64,000 nucleotides of DNA from NCBI RefSeq assembly GCF_029589435.1, contig NZ_JARRAG010000001.1, positions 548,808-612,807 of the forward strand, written 5' to 3'. Position 1 is the stretch's first letter. Each line of letters begins with the position of its first letter. The notes beneath the pieces were generated by a model. The model ran no database searches, had not been told where the DNA came from, and saw only the letters and a list, made by a program, of their open reading frames with translations. This DNA comes from Paludisphaera mucosa (GTDB lineage Bacteria > Planctomycetota > Planctomycetia > Isosphaerales > Isosphaeraceae). A program made the position numbers and the translations under genes. Positions 243 to 25,060 of this stretch are shown here, one piece after another.

Positions 243-490
243 CGACAATCGCCCGCCCGCCGAAGCCCCACCTTCTCCGCCTCCTCGGCCGGCTCGAACT
301 CCACCCGGTTCCGCTTGTTCATCCTGGCCGCGCCGCCGCAGTGGGGTGCGTGGTAAACCCTGCTGCTGCGGTTTCGCACCACTCCGGCCGTGACGGGCAC
401 TCCCTCGACCTTACGCCAGTTCCACGGCGATACCGCTCCAGGCTGACTCCATAGGTCGCGTTTCGCCTCATGAGCCACGGCCTGCAGCCT
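164..490 (-). pseudogene. C-terminal remnant of a thermonuclease (SNase)-like protein with a Cys/His tail domain, cut by an IS
   Basis: On the minus strand the frame reads RLQAVAHEAKRDLW...AVSPWNWRK, which matches the last helix and the GLWADPNPVPPWEWR-type ending of staphylococcal-nuclease-like proteins. It continues into VRNRSSRVYHAPHC...NRVEFEPAEEAEK...RRAGDC, a small Cys/His module of the Ada-like or 'sunset' type. The frame is open up to the exact left end of the IS5-type element at about 490. No N-terminal nuclease half is found on the far side, where only 22 bp separate the IS from the kinase gene. The gene therefore looks truncated, with the 5' half lost. A GTG at 478 could only give a non-catalytic fragment. 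Its 3' end overlaps the convergent bL12-like gene. Confidence 0.6.
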
Positions 491-510: not shown

Positions 511-1391
511 CAAAGCGTTACGATGGCGGCTTCTCCATGGAGGCCGGGATGTCGCGTCGCTATGAGCTGAAGGACGAGGAATACGCCTCGATCGCCGACC
601 TGCTCCCGCCGGTCGGCAGGCCGGGCGGGAGATGGAACGACCACCGGAGGACCCTCGACGGCGTCTTCTGGATCCTCCATACAGGGGCCCAGTGGCGGGG
701 GCTGCCGGAGCGATACGGCAGGTGGAAGAGCGTCTACGACCGCTTCGACCGATGGGCCCGCGACGGGACCATCGACCCATCCTGGAGCGTCTGCACCTGA
801 AGCTCGACGCGTCGGGGCGGATCGACTTCGGCCTCTGGTGCATCGACGGGACATCCATCCGGGCCAGCCGCGCGGCCGCCGGGGCCGGGGGGGAAAAGGG
901 GGGATGCCGAGCCGGCCGACCACGCCCTCGGCCGCTCCCGCGGCGGCTTCGGGACGAAGCTGCACCTGGTCGTCGACTCCGGAGGCGTCCCGCTCTCGGC
1001 CGTCGTCACGGCGGGCCAGGCCCACGAGTCGAGGTCGCTGGAGCCGGCCCTGGAGGCGGTGCGGATCAAGCGGCCGGGCCGCGGCCGCCCGCGACGCCGG
1101 CCCCGCCGACTGGCCGGCGACAAGGGGTATAGCTACCGCCGGATCCGCCGCTACTTGCGGCGTCGAGGCATCAAGGCGGTGATCCCGACCCGCAAGGACC
1201 AGCGGCGGAACCCGAAGTTCGACGCCGAGGCCTACCGGCGACGCAACATCGTCGAGCGGTGCATCCTCTGGCTCAAGGAGAACCGCCGACTTGCCACCCG
1301 CTTCGAGAAGCTCGCGGTGAACTTCCTGGCCATGGTGAAGCTGGCCATGATCCGCCGTTGCTTCCGACTCATCGAGCCGTCAGACAGAACC
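492..1391 (+). mobile_element. IS5-family (IS427-like) insertion sequence, about 900 bp, with perfect terminal inverted repeats
   Basis: The element is bounded by perfect inverted repeats beginning ggttctgtctgacggctcg. Each end is flanked by CTAG, consistent with insertion at a TA/CTAG target and a 2-4 bp duplication. It contains one transposase reading frame with two frame disruptions. Size, target preference and the DUF4096-type transposase N-terminus fit the IS427 group of the IS5 family. It sits between the truncated thermonuclease-like gene and the 3' end of the TPR kinase gene, and does not interrupt the kinase. Confidence 0.85.
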
Positions 1392-16011: not shown

Positions 16012-17271
16012 TTGGCGAACCTGGTGGAAGCCTACGCGAAGACCCGTCGATTCTCGGAATATCTGTGCGAGACGCTGCAGGTCGAGGACTACGTCGTCCA
16101 GCCCATGCCCGACGCGAGTCCCACTCGATGGCATCTGGCGCACACGACCTGGTTCTTCGAGACGTTCGTGCTGGCCCCATCGCAATCCGGTTACCGACCG
16201 GTCGACTCCGCCTACCAGGTGCTCTTCAACTCGTATTACAACAGCGTCGGAGAGCAGTTCCCTCGATCGCGCCGCGGGGTGCTGACGCGGCCGTCCGTGG
16301 CCGAGGTCTTCGCCTACCGGCGGGCCGTCGACGAGAGGATGGCCCGGCTGCTGAGAGAGGTCGACGGCGACGCGGCCGAGGAGATCGGCCGGGTCGTCGA
16401 GCTGGGGCTCCAGCACGAACAGCAGCACCAGGAGCTGATGCTCACGGATCTCAAGTATCTCTTCTCCTGCAACCCGCTCTGGCCGACGTATCGCCCATCG
16501 GAGGACGATGCGCCCGCGGCGACGACCGACGATAGCGGCTGGTCGACCCATGGCGGCGGGATCGTGAAGGTCGGGCATGACGGCGGCACCTTCGCATTCG
16601 ACAACGAGAGGCCGCGCCACGACGCCCTGATCGGGGCGTTCGAGCTGCAAGACCGTTTGACGACCGTCGGCGAGTTCCTCCAATTCGTGGAGGACGGCGG
16701 TTATCGTCGGCCCGATCTCTGGCTGTCGCTCGGGTGGGCCACGCGGAAGGAGCAGGGGTGGACGGCGCCCTTGTACTGGGTCGAGAGGGAGGGGGCGTGG
16801 AGCCAGTTCACGCTGGGCGGACTCAAGCCATTGCGGCTCGATGAGCCGGTCTGTCATATCAGCTTCTTCGAGGCGGACGCCTTTGCTCGCTGGATGGGCT
16901 CACGGCTGCCGACCGAAGCGGAGTGGGAGCATGCGGCGGCCGGGGTGATCCCAGGAGGTCGCTCCGGAATGCCAGGCCGTTTCCACCCCATTCCGGCGTC
17001 GCCGGTGCGAGGCGCCTCCCGGATTCGTCAATTGTACGGCGAGGTCTGGCAGTGGACGGCCAGCCCGTACACTCCGTATCCGGGTTATCGAGCCCCCTCG
17101 GGGGCGCTCGGCGAATACAACGGAAAGTTCATGTGCAACCAATATGTGTTGCGCGGTTCCTCCTGCGCCACCCCGGCAGGTCATTCGCGGTCGACGTATC
17201 GCAACTTCTTTCCGCCTGATGCGCGATGGCAATTCTCGGGGATGCGCCTGGCGCGTGATGCACAGGGGTGA
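16012..17271 (+). CDS. egtB: Ergothioneine biosynthesis sulfoxide synthase EgtB
   Basis: 419 residues. The start is TTG 16012, supported by gagggagg at 15997-16004 and the lack of an in-frame ATG. The N-terminal DinB-like half carries the non-heme iron ligands: His44 in [11 protein letters not shown] and the HX3HXE motif His135/His139/Glu141 (QHEQQHQE). The C-terminal half is the FGE-sulfatase fold with [23 protein letters not shown] and the [10 protein letters not shown] ending. The enzyme joins a sulfur donor (gamma-glutamylcysteine or cysteine) to hercynine in an oxygen-dependent step. Hercynine would be supplied by the convergent egtD product. No separate EgtC or EgtE homologue is in the window. 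Confidence 0.95.
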
Positions 17272-17362
17272 AATCGGCCAGGCCCGAGCTGGGCGCAACG
17301 GCCCGGATCGGGTCGACTTCGACTCCGAAGCACTTTTCGTCCCGACTCTAGGTCGAAATCCA

Positions 17363-18097
17363 ATGGCGATGCTGGAATTCCACGGAGCCTCTCGGACATA
17401 CGACGGGGTGACGGCGGTCCATCCGCTCGACCTGGCGGTCGAGGAAGGGGAAGTCCTGGTCCTGCTCGGACCCAGCGGCTGCGGAAAAACTACCATCCTG
17501 CGCATGGTGGCGGGCCTCGTCTCACCGACATCGGGCGAGGTCGCGGTCGACTCGATCCCCATCAGCCCCCAGACCATGGGCGCGATCCGCAAGACGCTGG
17601 GCTACGTGATCCAGGAGGGAGGACTTTTCCCTCACCTGACGGGGCTGGCGAACGTGACCATCATGGCCCGTCAAGAAGGCTGGCCGCGCGCCCGCATCGA
17701 CGAGCGAGTCGCCGAGCTGGTGGAGATGACCCAACTGCCGAGGGCCGGGCTGGATCGCTATCCGAATGAACTCTCTGGCGGGCAGCGTCAGCGGATCAGC
17801 CTGATCCGGGCCCTGTTCATGAGCCCGCGAATCCTGCTGCTGGACGAGCCGTTGGGCGCGCTCGATCCGCTGATTCGGGCCGGCTTGCAGAGAGACCTCA
17901 AGCAGGTCTTCGAAAGGACGGGGACGACCGTGTTGTTCGTGACCCACGACCTGGTCGAGGCCGGGCGATTCGCCGACCGAGTCTGCCTCATGCAGTCCGG
18001 CCGGATCGTCCAGCAGGGGCCGTTTCGCGAGATCCTCCAGAAGCCGAGCAGCGAATTCGTCCGCGAATTCGTCACCTCGCAGGTCGTCGAGCCGTGA
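17363..18097 (+). CDS. ABC transporter ATPase of the OpuCA/EgtV type
   Basis: 244 residues from ATG 17363; the longer upstream frame runs back into egtB sequence. Walker A GPSGCGKTT, Q-loop IQEGGLFPHLTG, signature LSGGQRQRISL, Walker B ILLLDEPLGALD and the H-loop THDLVEA are all present. The chain is short and lacks the C-terminal CBS domains of osmoprotectant ATPases. It overlaps the next gene by GTGA, so the two form one transporter. It lies 91 bp after egtB on the same strand. Confidence 0.92.
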   Translation: MAMLEFHGASRTYDGVTAVHPLDLAVEEGEVLVLLGPSGCGKTTILRMVAGLVSPTSGEVAVDSIPISPQTMGAIRKTLGYVIQEGGLFPHLTGLANVTIMARQEGWPRARIDERVAELVEMTQLPRAGLDRYPNELSGGQRQRISLIRALFMSPRILLLDEPLGALDPLIRAGLQRDLKQVFERTGTTVLFVTHDLVEAGRFADRVCLMQSGRIVQQGPFREILQKPSSEFVREFVTSQVVEP

Positions 18098-19638
18098 GAA
18101 GTCGATCCCTCGCCAAGTTGATCGTCTTGCCGCTGCTGCTCCTCATCGTGGGCGTCACCCCGCTCCCTCGCGCCGGGGTGCGAGTGCGGCTGGGCTCGAA
18201 GAAATTCACCGAGTCGGTGATTCTCGGCGAGATGCTGCGGATTTTGCTGGAGCACTCGGGAGTCAAGGTCGCCCACGTCCGCGAGATCGGCGGCACGCGT
18301 CTGCTTTTCGATGCGCTCGTGGCGGGCGAGATCGACGCCTACCCGGAATATACGGGCACCATCCTGAAGGAGATCTTCGTCGGAAAGGCCGTCGCCGACG
18401 ACCGCTCGATGCGGGAATTGCTGCGTAAGCAAGGCGTCGGCGTCGCCGAGTCGCTGGGGTTCAGCAACACTTACGCCCTGGCCCTCACCAGGCGGAGGGC
18501 CGCCGAGTTGGGGATCTCGCGCGTCTCGGATCTGCGACGACTCCCCGAGCTGCGGATCGCGCTGACGCACGAGTTCCTCGACCGCAGCGACGGCTGGCCG
18601 GCCCTGAAACGCGCGTACGACCTCCAGCAGGATCAGGTCGTCGGCGTCGATCACGACCTCGCCTATCGTCAGCTCCTGGCCGGCGAGATCGACCTGATCG
18701 ACGTCTATTCGACGGACGCCATGATTCGACGCTCGGACCTGTTCCTGCTCGCGGACGACCGCTCGTTCTTCCCGCGCTACGACGCACTCTGGCTTTACCG
18801 CCTCGATTCGGCGGCGCGCGATCCACAGCTCGTGGCCGCGATCGAGCGGCTCGCGGGGACGATCTCCGAGTCGGCGATGCAGAAGCTCAACGACGACGTC
18901 GAGGCGCGGAGGGCGACCGAAGAGCAGGCGGCCTCCGAGTTCCTGGCGACACGTTTCGGGATCCGGGTCGAGGCGCAAGCGCAGTCGCGCGCCGGGATGA
19001 TCGCCGACCATCTCGTCGAGCATCTCGACCTCGTGCGGCGTTCGCTGCTGCCGGCCATCGTGGTCGGGGTCGCGCTCGGCGTCTTCTGTCAGCGTTTTCC
19101 GCGGGCGGGGAAGGCGGTTTTGGCCGTCGTGGGGCTCTTGCAGACGATCCCCTCGCTGGCGCTGCTCGTCTTGTTGATGCCGGTGATCTGGGCGCTCGGC
19201 TATCGGAGCATCGGAGAGGGATCGGCGACGGCGGTTACGGCCCTTTTCTGCTATTGCCTCCTGCCGATCGTAAGGAACACGTACACGGGCCTGGAGGGCA
19301 TCCCGCGGGGGACGATCGAGTCGGCGACGGTGCTCGGACTCGGCCGCGTCCCCCGGCTGGTCGACATCGAGCTGCCGATGGCGATGCCGACCATCCTCGC
19401 CGGGATCCGGACTTCTGCCGTCCAGAACGTCGGCTTCGCGACGCTGGGGGCGATCATCGGGGCCGGCGGTCTCGGGCAGCCGATCCTGAGGGGGATCCGG
19501 CTCAACGATACATCGCTGATCGCGGCCGGCGCGATCCCCGCCGCACTCCTGGCGTTGCTCCTGCAATTCGCCGTCGACGCCATGGAATGGGTCTTGACCC
19601 CGCGCGGGCTGAAACGCCACGTCGCCGTGCGAGAATGA
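18094..19638 (+). CDS. Substrate-binding protein/permease fusion, OpuC/EgtU-like, candidate ergothioneine or betaine-type importer
   Basis: 514 residues from GTG 18094, which overlaps the ATPase stop. Residues 1-25 form a signal or anchor segment. Residues about 27-295 are an OpuAC/ProX-type binding domain (VRLGSKKFTESVILGEML, DAYPEYTGTILKEIF, DLIDVYSTDAMI) that normally recognises quaternary amines. Residues from about 318 onward are an MetI-like permease domain with several membrane helices and the EAA-like GLEGIPRGTIESATVLGLGR loop. EgtU of other bacteria, the ergothioneine importer, is also a permease/binding-domain fusion, but with the permease first; here the order is reversed. Because it sits between egtB and egtD, ergothioneine or hercynine (trimethylated amines) is the likely ligand. 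That is inference. Confidence 0.85.
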   Translation: MRSRSLAKLIVLPLLLLIVGVTPLPRAGVRVRLGSKKFTESVILGEMLRILLEHSGVKVAHVREIGGTRLLFDALVAGEIDAYPEYTGTILKEIFVGKAVADDRSMRELLRKQGVGVAESLGFSNTYALALTRRRAAELGISRVSDLRRLPELRIALTHEFLDRSDGWPALKRAYDLQQDQVVGVDHDLAYRQLLAGEIDLIDVYSTDAMIRRSDLFLLADDRSFFPRYDALWLYRLDSAARDPQLVAAIERLAGTISESAMQKLNDDVEARRATEEQAASEFLATRFGIRVEAQAQSRAGMIADHLVEHLDLVRRSLLPAIVVGVALGVFCQRFPRAGKAVLAVVGLLQTIPSLALLVLLMPVIWALGYRSIGEGSATAVTALFCYCLLPIVRNTYTGLEGIPRGTIESATVLGLGRVPRLVDIELPMAMPTILAGIRTSAVQNVGFATLGAIIGAGGLGQPILRGIRLNDTSLIAAGAIPAALLALLLQFAVDAMEWVLTPRGLKRHVAVRE

Positions 19639-19650
19639 ACGACGTGAGAC

Positions 19651-20661
19651 CTATCCCCTGATCTTGAAATGCAAGACGGCGAACTGGCGTCCCGGATCCG
19701 TCCACTCTCGTTCGAGCGTCAGACCTGCGGCGGCGGCCACGGTGGAGAATTCGTCCACTGTGTACTTGTGGGAGTACTCCGTGCAGATCGTGTCGGACGG
19801 CGAGAACGAGATGGACTCGCCTCCGACGCGGACGGACTGGGATTTTCGGCTCACGAGGTGCATCTCGATACGACCCTCGTCGGGATTGTAGAAGGCCCGA
19901 TGGGAGAAGTTGGAGAGGTCGAAATCCGCTCCCAGCTCGCGGTTGATCCGTTCCAGCAGATTCAGGTTGAACTGGGCCGTCACTCCCAGGCGGTCGTTGT
20001 AGGCCGCCTCGACGTCGCCCACCGCCTTCTTCAGGTCGATGCCGATGATGAGGCCGCCGCCCGCGCCGCAGAGGTCGACGATCCGTCGGAGGATCGCGGC
20101 GGCCTGATCCGGGACGAAGTTGCCGATCGTGGAGCCCGGAAAATACACGGAGACCCGCGCGGGCGCTCGAGAGGGTCGAGGCAAGGCGAACGGCCGGGTG
20201 AAGTCCGCGCAGACGGGCAGGATCTCAATCTCGGGGTAGTCGCTCGCCAGTTCGAGCGAAGTTTTGAACAGGTGCTCACCCGAGATATCGACGGGCACGT
20301 ACGCCGCCGGGTCCTTCAGGCAGTCGAGCAGATAGCGGGTCTTCACGCTGCTGCCGCTGCCGAACTCGACCAGCATCGCCCCCGCACCGAGCGCCTCTCC
20401 CATCTCGGGGGCGAAACGCTCCATCAAATCCAACTCGGTGCGCGTGAGGTAGTACTCTTCGAGCTGGCAGATGCGATCGAAGAGGATCGAGCCTCGCTCG
20501 TCGTAGAAGTATTTGCTGGGGATTTGCTTCGGCCGGCCTCGCAGCCCCGTGAGGACGTCTTCGAGGAACGTGAGTCCAGACTCCCGCCCTCCGAGGGATG
20601 GTGGGCCGGTCGTCGCGCAACTCACGCCGTCGGTCTTCCGAGTCAGGATGTCGCTTGACAA
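19651..20661 (-). CDS. egtD: L-histidine N-alpha-methyltransferase EgtD
   Basis: 336 residues if TTG 20661 is the start (agggt 9-12 bp upstream); the frame is open to 20790, so the true start is uncertain. It has the EgtD pattern: FLEDVLTGLRGRPKQIPSKYFYDERGSILFDRICQLEEYYLTRTE, the SAM loop VEFGSGSSVKTRYLLD, VYFPGSTIGNFVPDQA and the ending EREWTDPGRQFAVLHF. It trimethylates histidine to hercynine using SAM, the first step toward ergothioneine. It is convergent with the binding-protein/permease gene, stops 12 bp apart. Confidence 0.94.
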   Translation of the reverse strand: MSSDILTRKTDGVSCATTGPPSLGGRESGLTFLEDVLTGLRGRPKQIPSKYFYDERGSILFDRICQLEEYYLTRTELDLMERFAPEMGEALGAGAMLVEFGSGSSVKTRYLLDCLKDPAAYVPVDISGEHLFKTSLELASDYPEIEILPVCADFTRPFALPRPSRAPARVSVYFPGSTIGNFVPDQAAAILRRIVDLCGAGGGLIIGIDLKKAVGDVEAAYNDRLGVTAQFNLNLLERINRELGADFDLSNFSHRAFYNPDEGRIEMHLVSRKSQSVRVGGESISFSPSDTICTEYSHKYTVDEFSTVAAAAGLTLEREWTDPGRQFAVLHFKIRG

Positions 20662-21401
20662 TATGTTTACCCTGGTTGCTGATGCGGTCGAGCGGTTCGG
20701 TTCGGGAGAGGCCCGAAGAGAATTCGAGTCGTGAGCGCGTCCAGATCGACTTCCGTCGGCCTTCGCGCTCGGCTCATCGTCGAGTCGCATGGAGTCGGCG
20801 GTCGACGGCTACGGAAAACGCCCAGTCCTGAGAATCAAGGACGAGAGCCGAACCGATGAGCCCTCTCTCTGCACGACTGCGAGCCTGGATGTACTATCTC
20901 GGCTCGCAACACTCGATCCAGTTACGAATGCGGGGGATGCGAGCAGCTTTCATGCCGCTGAAAGGCCCAGCATCCGGGAACTCGGTCGAGGACCCGGACT
21001 TCGATGGTCCCGGCTCCATTCTATGCGCGAGGACCCGCAGGACAATTTCCGGATCGTAGGACGACTCCTCGAAAGGACCGGGTGGCCGGACGCGAGACCA
21101 TGCGGGCATCGCGTCCCGTTGCGGAACGGACCCGCCGCCGTTAGACTCGGTTTCACCTCTCCCGAATCGGCGGGCGCAAGCCCATGGCCGGCAAACACGA
21201 CCGTCGTCGATCGGACCGTCGCACTCCATCGGTCGGCGTCCCTGGACCTGTCGCCGAAGTGGCCGACGTCACCCGTTCCCGTCCCTCGACTCGTCGAACC
21301 CGGCTCGCACCCTCGGCGGCTCCCTTCGGTCCTTTCGCGAAGCGACGGCCCCACCGCCCGGGTCGGCTCGGAACCCCATCCGCCTCCCGCTGGAAGCGTC
21401 C
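20662..21401. other. Long intergenic region between egtD and the cyclase-like gene
   Basis: 740 bp with no recognisable protein in any frame; frames here are short and Arg/Pro-rich. It contains the promoters of the divergent egtD and cyclase-like genes. No hairpin, riboswitch or RNA gene was recognised by eye. Confidence 0.5.
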
Positions 21402-23513
21402 ATGTTGCATGCGATCCACAGGCTCAGCGTCCAGTCGAAGTTGACCATGATGCTCCTGCTCGTGAGCGTCGGCTCGATCTTCGTCATCAGCTTCCTGGGC
21501 TACGACTCGGGCATGAGGGCCGTGAAGGCCGGCGTCGAGGACCAGTTGACCAGCCTGAGGACGTCCAAGGCCTATCAGATCCGATCCCAGATCGAAGGCT
21601 TCCGCAATCAAGTCTACGTGTTCAGCGACGACTACATGATCGTCTCGGCGATGCGCGAGTTCCGCGACGCCTGCGACGACCTCGCCGCCAGGCCGGCCCC
21701 TCCCGAATACGAGGCGTCGCTGGTCGATTTCTACGGCAAGGAGTTCATCCCCCGGTTGACCGGCTACGTCGAGGGGAAGCCCGCGCTGGAGAACTACATT
21801 CCGAAGCTTCCCTGGTCCCGCTACCTCCAGCACCATTACATCGCGGCGAACCCGAACAAGGTCGGCGAGAAGTGGAAGCTGGACAAGGCGGGGGACGGCA
21901 GCCGCTATTCCGAAGTCCACGCCAAGTATCATCCGGTCCTGCGCGAGTTCGTCCAGAAATTCGGCTATTACGACCTCTTCCTGTTCGACGTCCGCACCCA
22001 GCACGTCGTCTATACGGTCTTCAAGGAGCCCGACTTCGCGACGGATTTCGCGACCGGCCCTTACAGCTCGTCGAACCTGGGCCGGCTGTTCACCTCGCTC
22101 ATCAAGGAGAAGGACAACAAGACCACGCGCATCGAGGATTTCGAGCCCTACCGGCCCTCGCTCGCGGCGCCGGCGGCCTTCGTGGGCGCGCCGATCTTCG
22201 ACGGCGCGGAGATGATCGGGATCCTCGCCTTCCAGTTCCCCATCGACGAGTTCAACAAGCTCATGACGAGCGACTACAAGTGGGAGGCGGACGGCCTGGG
22301 CGAGACCGGGGAGGTCTACCTGGTGGGCGACGATCACCTGATGCGGTCGATGTCCCGATTCCAGAAGCAGGCCCCGGAGAATTTCTACGCGGCGCTGAAG
22401 GCGGTGGGGACTCCGCCGTCGAAAATCGAGCGGCTGCGCCGCACGAACACGGCGATCCTCGAGCTGGCCGACGAGACGGAGTCGGTGACGCGGGCGCTTC
22501 ACGGCCAGTCCGGCACCGACCTCCTCGTCGATTACCGCGGCGTCGACGTGATCAGTTCGTACGCCCCCCTGGAGATCGACGGTCTGAGCTGGGTGCTCGT
22601 CGCCAAGAAGGACCTGTCCGAGGCGTTCGCGCCGATCGCGAGCTTCGGGCGCAAGGTTCTGGCCTCTTCCGTCGTCATCGTCCTGGTCATCACGTGCCTG
22701 GCCGCATTGCTGGCGCGGCTCTTCGTGCGGCCGATCTTCCAGCTCATCGAGGGGGCGCGGAGGATCGCGTCCGGGGAGAAGGGGGTTTACGTGAAGGTCT
22801 CGTCGAAGGACGAGCTGCACGACCTCGCCGAGTCGTTCAACGTGATGAGCCTGAGCCTCAAGGTCAAGTCCGAGGAGATCGAGCGTCGGGTGCAGGAGAA
22901 CGAGGAATTGCTGCTGAACATCCTGCCGACGTCGATCGCGACGAGGAGGAAGGCGGGGGTCCAGACCGTCTCCGACAGTCATGCCGACGTCACGGTCATG
23001 TTCGCCGAGATCTCCGGGTTCGCCGAGGCGACCGGCTCGATGTCCGCCGACCAGGCCGCGGAGCTGCTCAACGACATGATCTCGGCCTTCGACGAGGCGG
23101 CCGAACGGCACGGGGTGGAGAAGGTGAAGACGGTCGGAGAAGACTACCTGGCCGCGTGCGGCCTTTCCGTGCCGCGCCTCGATCATGCCAGCCGCGTCGT
23201 CGACTTCGCCGAGGACGTGGTCCGGATCGTCCGGAGGTTGAACCAGGACCGCGGACACCCGCTCTCCGTCCAGGTGGGGATCAACTCCGGGCCGGTCGTC
23301 GGCGGCATCGTGGGGCGGACGAAGTTCATCTTCGACATGTGGGGCGACACGGTGAACGTCGCCAGGTCGCTCTACACCGTCGGGGGCGACAACTCGATCC
23401 ACGTGACGCAGGCGGTGCACGACCGCCTCAAGGACGCCTATCGGTTCGAGCCGGTCGGCACCGTGGAAATCAAGGGCAAGGGGCCGATCCCCATCTGGCG
23501 GACCGCCGCCTGA
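21402..23513 (+). CDS. Membrane class III adenylate/guanylate cyclase-like protein with altered catalytic residues
   Basis: 703 residues from ATG 21402 (ggaag upstream). Membrane helix at about 13-34; a large periplasmic sensor domain (about 40-415, Cache-like, ending TDLLVDYRGVDVISSYAPLE then WVLVAKKDLSEAF); second membrane helix at about 419-443; HAMP RPIFQLIEGARRIASGEKG; then a class III cyclase domain (about 528-690, FDMWGDTVNVA). The two metal-binding Asp positions are Glu: E536 in VMFAEISGF and E580 in KTVGEDYLA. The transition-state Arg is displaced (NVARSLY instead of NVASRxx). Activity is therefore doubtful. An MscS channel with a cyclic-nucleotide-binding tail follows 20 bp later. 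Confidence 0.9.
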   Translation: MLHAIHRLSVQSKLTMMLLLVSVGSIFVISFLGYDSGMRAVKAGVEDQLTSLRTSKAYQIRSQIEGFRNQVYVFSDDYMIVSAMREFRDACDDLAARPAPPEYEASLVDFYGKEFIPRLTGYVEGKPALENYIPKLPWSRYLQHHYIAANPNKVGEKWKLDKAGDGSRYSEVHAKYHPVLREFVQKFGYYDLFLFDVRTQHVVYTVFKEPDFATDFATGPYSSSNLGRLFTSLIKEKDNKTTRIEDFEPYRPSLAAPAAFVGAPIFDGAEMIGILAFQFPIDEFNKLMTSDYKWEADGLGETGEVYLVGDDHLMRSMSRFQKQAPENFYAALKAVGTPPSKIERLRRTNTAILELADETESVTRALHGQSGTDLLVDYRGVDVISSYAPLEIDGLSWVLVAKKDLSEAFAPIASFGRKVLASSVVIVLVITCLAALLARLFVRPIFQLIEGARRIASGEKGVYVKVSSKDELHDLAESFNVMSLSLKVKSEEIERRVQENEELLLNILPTSIATRRKAGVQTVSDSHADVTVMFAEISGFAEATGSMSADQAAELLNDMISAFDEAAERHGVEKVKTVGEDYLAACGLSVPRLDHASRVVDFAEDVVRIVRRLNQDRGHPLSVQVGINSGPVVGGIVGRTKFIFDMWGDTVNVARSLYTVGGDNSIHVTQAVHDRLKDAYRFEPVGTVEIKGKGPIPIWRTAA

Positions 23514-23533
23514 GCGGAACGTAGGCGAGCGAC

Positions 23534-25060
23534 ATGCAGAAGACGTTCATGGATAGCGAGATGCTCCGTTGGGGCGTCGGTTTGATCCTGGGCTTCCCGG
23601 CGCTGATGCTGATCGTCGGCGAGGTCATCTTCCATCTGGATCGCCGCAAGCACCCCCTGACCTCGACGCTGCGGATCGTCCGCGGGCTGCTCCTGCCGGC
23701 CACGGCCGTCTTCCTCACGCTCCAGCACGTCATCCCGGTCGGCCGCGACGACCTGTGGCTCCGGCTGGTCGAGACGGTCATCCTGCTCGTCCTCATCCAT
23801 GCGTCGTTGTCGCTGTTGAACGTCGTCATCTTCGCGCACGCGACCGAAGGGTCGTGGCAATCTCGACTCCCGCGCCTGCTCGTCGACGTGATCCGCCTGA
23901 TCCTGGTGCTGGTCGGCCTGTCGGTCGTGCTGTCGATCGTCTGGGGCTACGACCTGGGCTCGCTGGCGACGGCCCTCGGGGTCGGGTCGCTCGTCCTCGG
24001 CCTGGCCCTCCAGGACGCCGTGGGAAACGTTTTCGCGGGCCTGCTCCTGATGTTCGAACGGCCGATCACCGTGGGCGACTGGATCACCGTCGAGGGGTAC
24101 TCGGGGAAGATCGTCGAGATCAACTGGCGGGCCGTCCATCTGGAGACGTTCGAGCGCGTCCTCGTCATCGTCCCGAACTCGGTCCTGGCGAAGGGGGCGA
24201 TCTCGAACTACGGCCGGCCGACCCGGCTTCACGGCGAACTCCTGCCGTTCCGGTTCAGCGTCTTCGACAAGCCCAATGAAGTCCGGAACCTGCTCGCCGA
24301 CACGATCGAGGGGGTGCGGGGCATCCTCGCGGATCCGCCCGCCGACATCATCACCGACAGCTTCGGCGACGGCGTCGTCCTGTACAAAGTCAGGTTCTAC
24401 GTCGAGGACTACGCCGACGTCGAACGAGCCCGCAGCGAATACCTCACGCGCGTCTGGTATGCGGCGAGACGGCTGCGACTGACCCTCGACCATCCCACCC
24501 TGTACCACCTGCCCGCCGACCGCGAGGCTCCCCCGTTCCGGGACAAGGTGCCGACGCCCGCCGCCGTGGCGGCGCTCTTCCCCCAGTTCGGCCTCTCCGC
24601 CGTCGCCGAGGACGGCCCGGAGTGGAGGGACGTCTGCTTGCGACACTATTCCCCGGGGGAGACGGTCCTCCGCCCGGGAGAAGCGATCCCGGGACTGTTC
24701 TTGATCTTCAGCGGCCATGTGGAGCTGGCTGTGCGAAATGAAGACGGGCTCCTCAACATCACCGCCGGCGCGGGCCGCGGCGAATACTTCGGCGAGAAGG
24801 CCCTGCTGCCCGGCCAATCCAGCGACTTCTTCGTGGTCGTCGCCGAGGAGCTGGAGGTGTTGGTCCTCCCTTCCACGACGTTGGAAGCGATGCTGGAACG
24901 CTCGCCTCGCCTCGCCTCGGAAATCGGTCGCGTGATGGAATCGCGTCGGGCCGCGGCTCTCAGGGCGAGCAAGAGGCCCGTGAATGCGGCCGATCAAGCC
25001 TTCGTCCATCCCCGCCGTGAAGACGCCGCTAGGTCCGTAGGCGCTTCCGATCGAGCCTGA
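23534..25060 (+). CDS. MscS-family channel with C-terminal cyclic-nucleotide-binding domain (bCNG type)
   Basis: 508 residues from ATG 23534. Five or so membrane helices occupy residues 1-165. The pore-lining MscS helix is LGSLATALGVGSLVLGLALQDAVGNVFAGLLL, followed by the beta domain VGDWITVEGYSGKIVEINWRAVHLETFE and VPNSVLAKGAISNYGRP. A CRP-like binding domain follows at about 375-475 (YSPGETVLRPGEAIPGLFLIFSGHVEL). In its phosphate-binding cassette the Glu (E421 in FGEKALL) is kept but the usual Arg is replaced (PGQSSDFF). Channels of this layout are proposed to be gated by cyclic nucleotide rather than tension. It directly follows the cyclase-like gene. Confidence 0.9.
   Translation: MQKTFMDSEMLRWGVGLILGFPALMLIVGEVIFHLDRRKHPLTSTLRIVRGLLLPATAVFLTLQHVIPVGRDDLWLRLVETVILLVLIHASLSLLNVVIFAHATEGSWQSRLPRLLVDVIRLILVLVGLSVVLSIVWGYDLGSLATALGVGSLVLGLALQDAVGNVFAGLLLMFERPITVGDWITVEGYSGKIVEINWRAVHLETFERVLVIVPNSVLAKGAISNYGRPTRLHGELLPFRFSVFDKPNEVRNLLADTIEGVRGILADPPADIITDSFGDGVVLYKVRFYVEDYADVERARSEYLTRVWYAARRLRLTLDHPTLYHLPADREAPPFRDKVPTPAAVAALFPQFGLSAVAEDGPEWRDVCLRHYSPGETVLRPGEAIPGLFLIFSGHVELAVRNEDGLLNITAGAGRGEYFGEKALLPGQSSDFFVVVAEELEVLVLPSTTLEAMLERSPRLASEIGRVMESRRAAALRASKRPVNAADQAFVHPRREDAARSVGASDRA

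Follow-up and report, generated by a model that had tools for sequence, protein, structure and literature searches.

Channels of the MscS superfamily that combine the MscS pore and beta domain with a C-terminal cyclic-nucleotide-binding domain (CNBD), the bacterial cyclic-nucleotide-gated (bCNG) channels, have reportedly been described by Caldwell in 2010 and by Malcolm in 2012. Enzymes with a matching output are the class III receptor adenylyl cyclases, for which Rv1625c and the soluble-domain structures 5o5k/5o5l serve as references. Both elements also occur as neighbors: in Pycsar, a class III cyclase-fold gene (PycC) lies beside a gene for a CNBD effector (PycTM or PycTIR), PycTM being a membrane protein, according to an excerpt of PMC11224242. 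A CNBD fold without its critical Arg is found in the cyclic-nucleotide-binding (CNB)-homology domains of the KCNH (EAG/ERG/ELK) channels, as stated in an excerpt of PMC3808384. Here, we report on a two-gene unit in the window, i.e., the whole analyzed stretch of 64,000 nucleotides from Paludisphaera mucosa, consisting of a Cache-HAMP receptor with a class III cyclase fold and an MscS-type channel with a C-terminal CNB-homology domain. The two genes are a conserved pair, and the residues for making as well as for binding a cyclic nucleotide are usually lost from it. All halves of this system are already known (bCNG channels, class III receptor cyclases, CNB-homology domains, and the cyclase/CNBD-effector pairs of Pycsar). 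A conserved pair with both losses was not found described in the literature, which was covered mostly by titles and abstracts, with subscription journals largely outside.

In the mycobacterial cyclase Rv1625c, the metal is bound by Asp256 and Asp300 and the substrate by Lys296 and Asp365, with Asn372 and Arg376 serving in the transition state, according to an excerpt of PMC4174876. The positions 256/296/300/365/372/376 correspond to 536/576/580/645/652/656 of the window receptor in a gap-free manner and with identical spacing, and the receptor reads EEKDNS at the class III DDKDNR positions. It thereby shares the fold, the helix leading into the catalytic domain, the substrate-binding K576 and D645, and N652 with the class III receptor adenylyl cyclases, but differs from them by two exchanges of metal-binding Asp to Glu and one of the transition-state Arg to Ser. 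HMMER alignments to human AC9 place, by our reading, the same active-site residues at these positions. An alignment slip as the origin of the losses was ruled out by the exact Rv1625c spacing, the cassette being free of insertions in nearly all rows. Judged from these residues, the window receptor is probably a pseudocyclase, and the two Glu might still hold a metal. The Paludisphaera mucosa genome contains only two class III cyclase domains (PF00211), both located in such pairs and both degenerate, with the paralogous paired cyclase likewise lacking the metal Asp and the transition-state Arg. No further class III cyclase was detected in this genome by the PF00211 search, in which other cyclase classes were not searched.

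The degeneration extends far beyond this genome. Among 93 distinct channel-linked cyclases, including pieces cut by contig or stretch ends, 90 have lost at least one of the six key residues, and only three (L133, L134, and L301) keep all of them. Both metal Asp are retained in 35/93 and the transition-state Arg in 12/93, whereas the base-selecting Lys (75/93) and Asp (79/93) are kept far more often. In comparison, the unpaired catalytic-domain homologues were intact throughout (68/68), comprising 58/58 in the wider scan (L144 and the split L146 included) and 10/10 from planctomycetes. At least part of the same sensor, with no such channel nearby, is found in the intact relatives L142-L144 and the split L146; in the sensor-sharing relative L141, one key position is an unreadable letter. 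In the scan of named-genome contigs, the cyclases were chosen by patterns, one of them containing D645, which favors that residue and not the other five; of 569 loci, the best 80 were retained. At least eight changes of the metal pair and at least eight of the transition-state Arg are required on a tree of 81 rows; hence, the catalytic losses are repeated. The retention of Lys and Asp, with K576 and D645 kept in the window, would be in line with a pseudocyclase serving as a nucleotide or metabolite sensor, which binds ATP without turnover and reports energy status as well as the external cue to the channel. However, the window receptor carries neither of the two Asp that act as metal ligands for the triphosphate, leaving this explanation a slim prospect.

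Within CNBDs, an Arg holding the cyclic phosphate is conserved together with a Gly and a Glu, according to the above-mentioned excerpt of PMC11224242. This Arg was found in 0/96 readable adjacent or same-genome partner channels, of which 89 carry Ser and three Thr, while Gly420 is kept in 96/96 and Glu421 in 76/96, the latter being lost in several clades. In contrast, it is present in 40/41 unpaired MscS-CNBD controls (27/27 distinct planctomycete and 13/14 cyanobacterial proteins); the sole Arg-less cyanobacterial one carries Cys. The paired channels thus resemble bCNG channels in their layout, but deviate from them by the missing phosphate-binding Arg and by the accompanying receptor gene. 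With KCNH channels, they share a CNBD fold devoid of the phosphate-binding Arg. KCNH channels, being tetrameric voltage-gated K+ channels with a self-liganded pocket according to the excerpt of PMC3808384, differ from the present system of an MscS channel with a partner receptor.

Several counting rules define these numbers. Eleven identical rows of the linked set were merged (6 cyclase, 5 channel), and 4/92 linked channels end before the cassette residue. “Unpaired” refers to the lack of a cyclase match in the flanking DNA, which mostly spans up to about 1.5 kb and in some cases a few hundred bases. Of the planctomycete control channels, 3/30 open reading frames (ORFs) without the CNBD stretch were excluded, and L094 equals L056 (28 rows, 27 proteins). 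Out of 16 control channels, two were not counted as unpaired, namely L357, a pair at a contig edge carrying Thr, and L345, whose channel has Ser at the Arg position, is 28% identical to the window channel, and shows no cyclase in its 14-kb stretch. Apart from L357, tblastn revealed no cyclase in the control channel loci, with their short flanks. Around the intact cyclases, weak MscS matches appeared 2-4 kb away (L167, L171) and weak CNBD matches 5 kb away (L169, L178), none of them constituting a pair.

The original prediction had named a cyclic nucleotide, set by an external cue, as the signal gating the channel. This part was not borne out, given the missing metal Asp and Arg of the window cyclase, the Arg-less partner channels, and the losses in 90 of the 93 linked cyclases; for the window pair, an ordinary cyclic AMP (cAMP) or cyclic GMP (cGMP) circuit was rejected on the basis of its active-site and cassette residues. 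A residual form, with cAMP or cGMP made at a low rate and sensed locally by the channel at high concentration, might be suggested by a cyclase-fold protein adjoining a CNBD channel, by the linked cyclases keeping the metal Asp or all six residues, and by K576 and D645 in the window. It nevertheless appears improbable, since the phosphate-binding Arg is absent from all partners but present in nearly all unpaired controls, and since the window cyclase and its paralogue have lost the metal Asp and the Arg. In the few intact members, such a residual circuit is possible.

The main rival is a circuit with an altered ligand, in which a small molecule of another kind, either uncharged or a different nucleotide, is produced or recruited by the receptor or by some other enzyme and then bound by the Ser-bearing CNBD. 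The strong conservation of Ser along with Gly420 and Glu421 would agree with this, as would the preferential retention of the base-selecting residues of the cyclase. We nonetheless consider it unlikely: the window cyclase, devoid of both the metal Asp and the transition-state Arg, is therefore an unlikely source, the catalytic losses are varied and repeated without a single new consensus site, and Glu421 is gone in several clades. As for the order of events, Ser occupies the channel Arg position even in the three pairs whose cyclases are intact. Therefore, the simplest sequence would begin with the loss of the channel Arg, at or close to the root of the pair, and continue with later decay of the cyclase. 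Additionally, two stand-alone short CNBD pieces (L363:8764-9096 and L364:9485-9919) were detected, 51-56% identical to the CNBD of a cyanobacterial paired channel and with no channel or cyclase match within the surrounding 18-19 kb; these are probably remnants.

The coordinates of both genes and of the diagnostic codons are compiled in the table below.

Table. Features of the receptor-channel pair in the window (nucleotide positions refer to the window, residue numbers to the respective protein)
Feature	Position	Strand	Evidence
Receptor with Cache sensor, HAMP, and class III cyclase fold (703 aa), probably a pseudocyclase	21402..23513	+	ORF, Pfam, predicted structure
MscS-type channel with C-terminal CNB-homology domain, 508 aa	23534..25060	+	ORF, Pfam, predicted structure
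Receptor layout: N-terminal helix 10-75 including first membrane span; sensor ~40-410; second span/HAMP ~410-486			
Receptor layout, continued: signalling helix 471-505; catalytic fold 524-697			
Receptor codon 536, Glu at first metal-binding Asp position of class III cyclases	23007..23009	+	alignment to Rv1625c Asp256
Receptor codon 580, Glu at second metal-binding Asp position	23139..23141	+	44-residue spacing same as Asp256/Asp300
Receptor codon 656, Ser at transition-state Arg position; Asn652 kept	23367..23369	+	alignment to Rv1625c
Channel CNBD-like domain (residues 370-456) without phosphate-binding Arg	24641..24901	+	Pfam, alignment
Channel codon 430, Ser at phosphate-cassette Arg position; Gly420-Glu421 kept	24821..24823	+	alignment

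Concerning the architecture, the original prediction of a Cache-HAMP class III cyclase-like protein followed by a CNBD-bearing MscS channel was confirmed by the exact ORF ends and the Pfam domains, and so was the spacing of 20 bp, both genes lying on the plus strand in the ORF list of the window. The class III fold of the receptor is evident from Pfam (Guanylate_cyc, 153.8 bits, residues 524-697) and from its structural model (predicted local distance difference test (pLDDT) 86.6), for which the top Foldseek matches were the bacterial adenylyl cyclase structures 5o5l/5o5k (5o5k with TMt 0.87). The HAMP domain scored 42.7 bits (436-486). For the sensor, dCache_1 reached 28.4 bits at 257-401, below the Pfam cut-off of 45; among ten proteins scanned as sensor relatives, two methyl-accepting chemotaxis proteins (MCPs) and one histidine kinase exceeded this cut-off (84.8, 48.8, and 47.0 bits), and the rest scored below. 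Because these sensor-sharing relatives pass the cut-off, the window sensor is more securely assigned to dCache. A Foldseek search with the whole receptor model yielded, among the matches listed, cyclase entries only and no sensor match; the assignment of the sensor fold consequently rests on Pfam. Within the channel, both the MscS pore/beta domain and the CNBD fold are present, as seen from Pfam (MS_channel_2nd 71.5 bits, MS_channel_3rd 23.9 bits, MS_channel_1st 23.0 bits with a cut-off of 23.1, and cNMP_binding 56.5 bits at residues 370-456) and from the AlphaFold model (pLDDT 79.1), whose best Foldseek matches were MscK/YnaI/MscS. NCBIfam gave only matches far below cut-off for both proteins (HAMP kinases/MCPs and MscS-type channels). 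Two ORFs in other frames overlap the receptor gene (20789-23524, 911 aa, and 21153-23420, 755 aa); they look like GC-rich shadow frames and not like genes.

Extension of the analysis toward other genomes showed that receptor and channel are a real, conserved unit, their adjacency not being due to chance, and the two-gene, channel-directed arrangement proposed originally was recovered across a wide genome sample. Full-length receptor and channel lie side by side at seven places in 6/45 genomes of the family, and three further family genomes match the catalytic domain only. The window genome itself contains the pair twice, at C1:570209-573864 (the window pair) and, on the opposite strand, at C1:1856685-1860384. 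The adjacency expected for related genomes was thus encountered in the family and in other phyla but in 0/5 of the same-genus genomes searched, revealing a patchy distribution. The same arrangement occurs in metagenome-assembled genomes (MAGs) and genomes whose record titles name Cyanobacteria, Verrucomicrobia, Planctomycetales, Gammaproteobacteria, and Actinomycetes. Within 338 genomes sampled in the class of one cyanobacterium (G435), 69 possess both genes, 2 the channel only, 4 the cyclase only, and 263 neither; the channel cut (about E 1e-60) was set after the table had been seen, and the Fisher p-value ignores phylogeny. Five of the six single-gene exceptions are contig ends or fragments: the cyclase runs into a contig end in G711, G729, and G762, and the channel-only genomes G505 (L357) and G756 (L368) hold cyclase fragments. 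In the sixth, G655, the sensor sits on another output. Absences in the phylum and class searches are soft, since no more than 2-4 candidates were scored for each genome.

The cyclase comes first in 89/92 measured pairs (L264, a second cyclase downstream of a channel, is counted among the 93 and is also the 1545-nt “channel first” entry). The median gap amounts to 27.5 nt, and 25/92 pairs touch or overlap in longest-ORF coordinates. Eight genomes have both genes in non-adjacent positions; two of these (L277, L288) carry them on the same strand at distances of 4.5 and 7 kb. An expanded variant was observed in G034, which combines one channel of this kind with eight such receptors, six of them on one contig stretch. 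There, at G034:C56:10913-27280 (L088:10913-19999 and L089:365-7280), the channel pair precedes a tandem array of five additional pseudocyclase receptors; together with two others on a different contig (L092, L093), they form an enlarged sensor set beside a single channel of this kind. In an Actinomycetes-labelled MAG (L151:333-5484), a channel is flanked by two receptor genes, being very divergent (27% identity, long branch). At L365:2294-6290, the same sensor belongs to a protein of 814 aa whose output is a different one; the next gene shows a weak match to the cyclase domain, so that sensor and cyclase are on separate genes.

We further compared substitution rates within close relatives (dN <0.2), 60 of 135 gene pairs being listed. 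The ratio of nonsynonymous to synonymous rates (dN/dS) was 0.02-0.16 for the catalytic domain, with 0.09 for L320/L321, in which five of the six residues are lost, 0.07 for L309/L316, and 0.16 for L124/L127. For the CNBD, it was about 0.03-0.23. Since the values are low in close pairs, such domains appear to be kept by selection, and the ratios indicate that purifying selection preserves both of them among close relatives; a classification of the paired cyclases as decaying pseudogenes was rejected on this basis. A related explanation, namely decaying remnants that stayed adjacent by chance or through joint horizontal transfer, could refer to the patchy spread including the same-genus absences, to short remnant CNBDs in G560 and G777, and to a truncated pair in G756. 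It is hardly credible in view of full-length open frames at 40-50% identity, dN/dS far below 1 in close pairs, and the eight genomes keeping both genes though non-adjacent. Across 57 pairs (<75% identity), the divergence of the cyclase domain correlates better with those of the channel pore (r 0.78), the CNBD (0.71), and its own HAMP (0.78) than with that of its own sensor (0.49), despite mean identities being similar for sensor (0.43) and cyclase domain (0.41). In an exploratory sense, this fits an output domain and a channel evolving as one module with an exchangeable sensor.

With residues for making and for binding the messenger mostly gone, the receptor may do without it when acting on the channel. 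An ancestral pair of a cyclase and a cyclic-nucleotide-gated channel would have given up its messenger. An outside ligand would bind the dCache-type sensor, and the signal would pass, as the architecture suggests, via membrane helix, HAMP, and signalling helix to the class III cyclase fold. In the window receptor, this fold, lacking the catalytic residues, would influence the MscS/CNBD-like cytoplasmic part of the channel, most probably by touching it directly, and would thereby shift channel opening. Outputs of MCPs and histidine kinases work via protein contact or phosphotransfer. The occurrence of the sensor on MCPs and one histidine kinase otherwise, among the ten proteins scanned, was counted in favor of contact. 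So were the conserved pairing, the residue losses in both proteins, the two degenerate domains as the only class III ones of the window genome, the low dN/dS in close relatives, the co-divergence of cyclase domain and channel, and the eight receptors with one channel in G034. A related dCache sensor is shared with the MCP chemoreceptors L096-L100 and L102-L104 (8 MCPs of the ten proteins), but the present receptor has a cyclase fold as its output and presumably targets a channel rather than the chemotaxis machinery. We regard gating of the neighboring channel by contact with a pseudocyclase receptor, the messenger having been abandoned, as an evenly balanced proposition. The wider version is put forward tentatively, at slightly below an even chance. 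It envisages a two-gene family of messenger-free ligand-gated channels, widespread in bacteria, whose MscS-type channel would be gated via its CNB-homology domain in a direct manner by the Cache-HAMP pseudocyclase receptor. This family would have arisen from a cyclase/bCNG pair by loss of the channel Arg at or near the root and repeated cyclase losses thereafter, and one channel may serve several receptors.

Several observations weigh against gating by contact. Degeneration is also found in 9/12 full-length receptors that are not channel-linked in the stretches examined (7 in G034, L137 at a contig end, and L342 in a short stretch). Besides L133, L134, and L301 with all six residues, 32 more linked cyclases keep both metal Asp without the Arg; hence, production of a cyclic nucleotide may persist in some members. 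Nucleotide binding could persist likewise, considering the frequent retention of Lys and Asp in the cyclases and of Glu421 in the channels. The conserved Ser at the Arg position is compatible both with a changed ligand and with a contact surface. Moreover, the samples of pairs are dominated by cyanobacteria and lack independence. Between distant members, dN/dS reaches 0.26-0.69 (catalytic domain) and up to ~1 (CNBD), dS being near saturation or GC-biased there. The window genes have no close relative, and dN/dS comes from other members only. Finally, the co-variation of rates is an exploratory result, with shared ancestry and possible sensor swapping as confounders.

With regard to Pycsar, the likeness of a class III cyclase-fold gene beside a CNBD-effector gene is accompanied by clear differences. 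Pycsar structures retain the two metal Asp and the CNBD Gly/Glu/Arg, according to the excerpt of PMC11224242, in contrast to E536/E580 and Ser430 with Gly/Glu kept in the window, and a Cache-HAMP receptor and an MscS channel take the place of the Pycsar proteins. The PADLOC PycC score of the window cyclase is weak (24.2 bits vs 51.4 for an unpaired intact cyclase). Membership in Pycsar was rejected on this score together with the missing metal Asp and CNBD Arg.

The region immediately upstream of the pair (window 16012-20790) contains a glycine-betaine-type ABC transporter (17144-19638), bordered by genes for an FGE-sulfatase/DinB-domain protein on one side and a histidine-specific methyltransferase on the other, which we take to be EgtB-like and EgtD-like, respectively. 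An osmotic link of the pair is only a thought. The surroundings of the second pair in the same genome revealed nothing informative.

For loci of this kind, domain names alone may mislead, as they suggest cAMP circuits, while the only class III domains of the window genome are degenerate. If the proposed mechanism is true, the pairs would represent a bacterial pseudoenzyme-pseudoreceptor partnership caught at several stages of dropping its second messenger while the partnership lasts; thereby, a mechanosensitive-family channel would be gated in a chemoreceptor-like manner.

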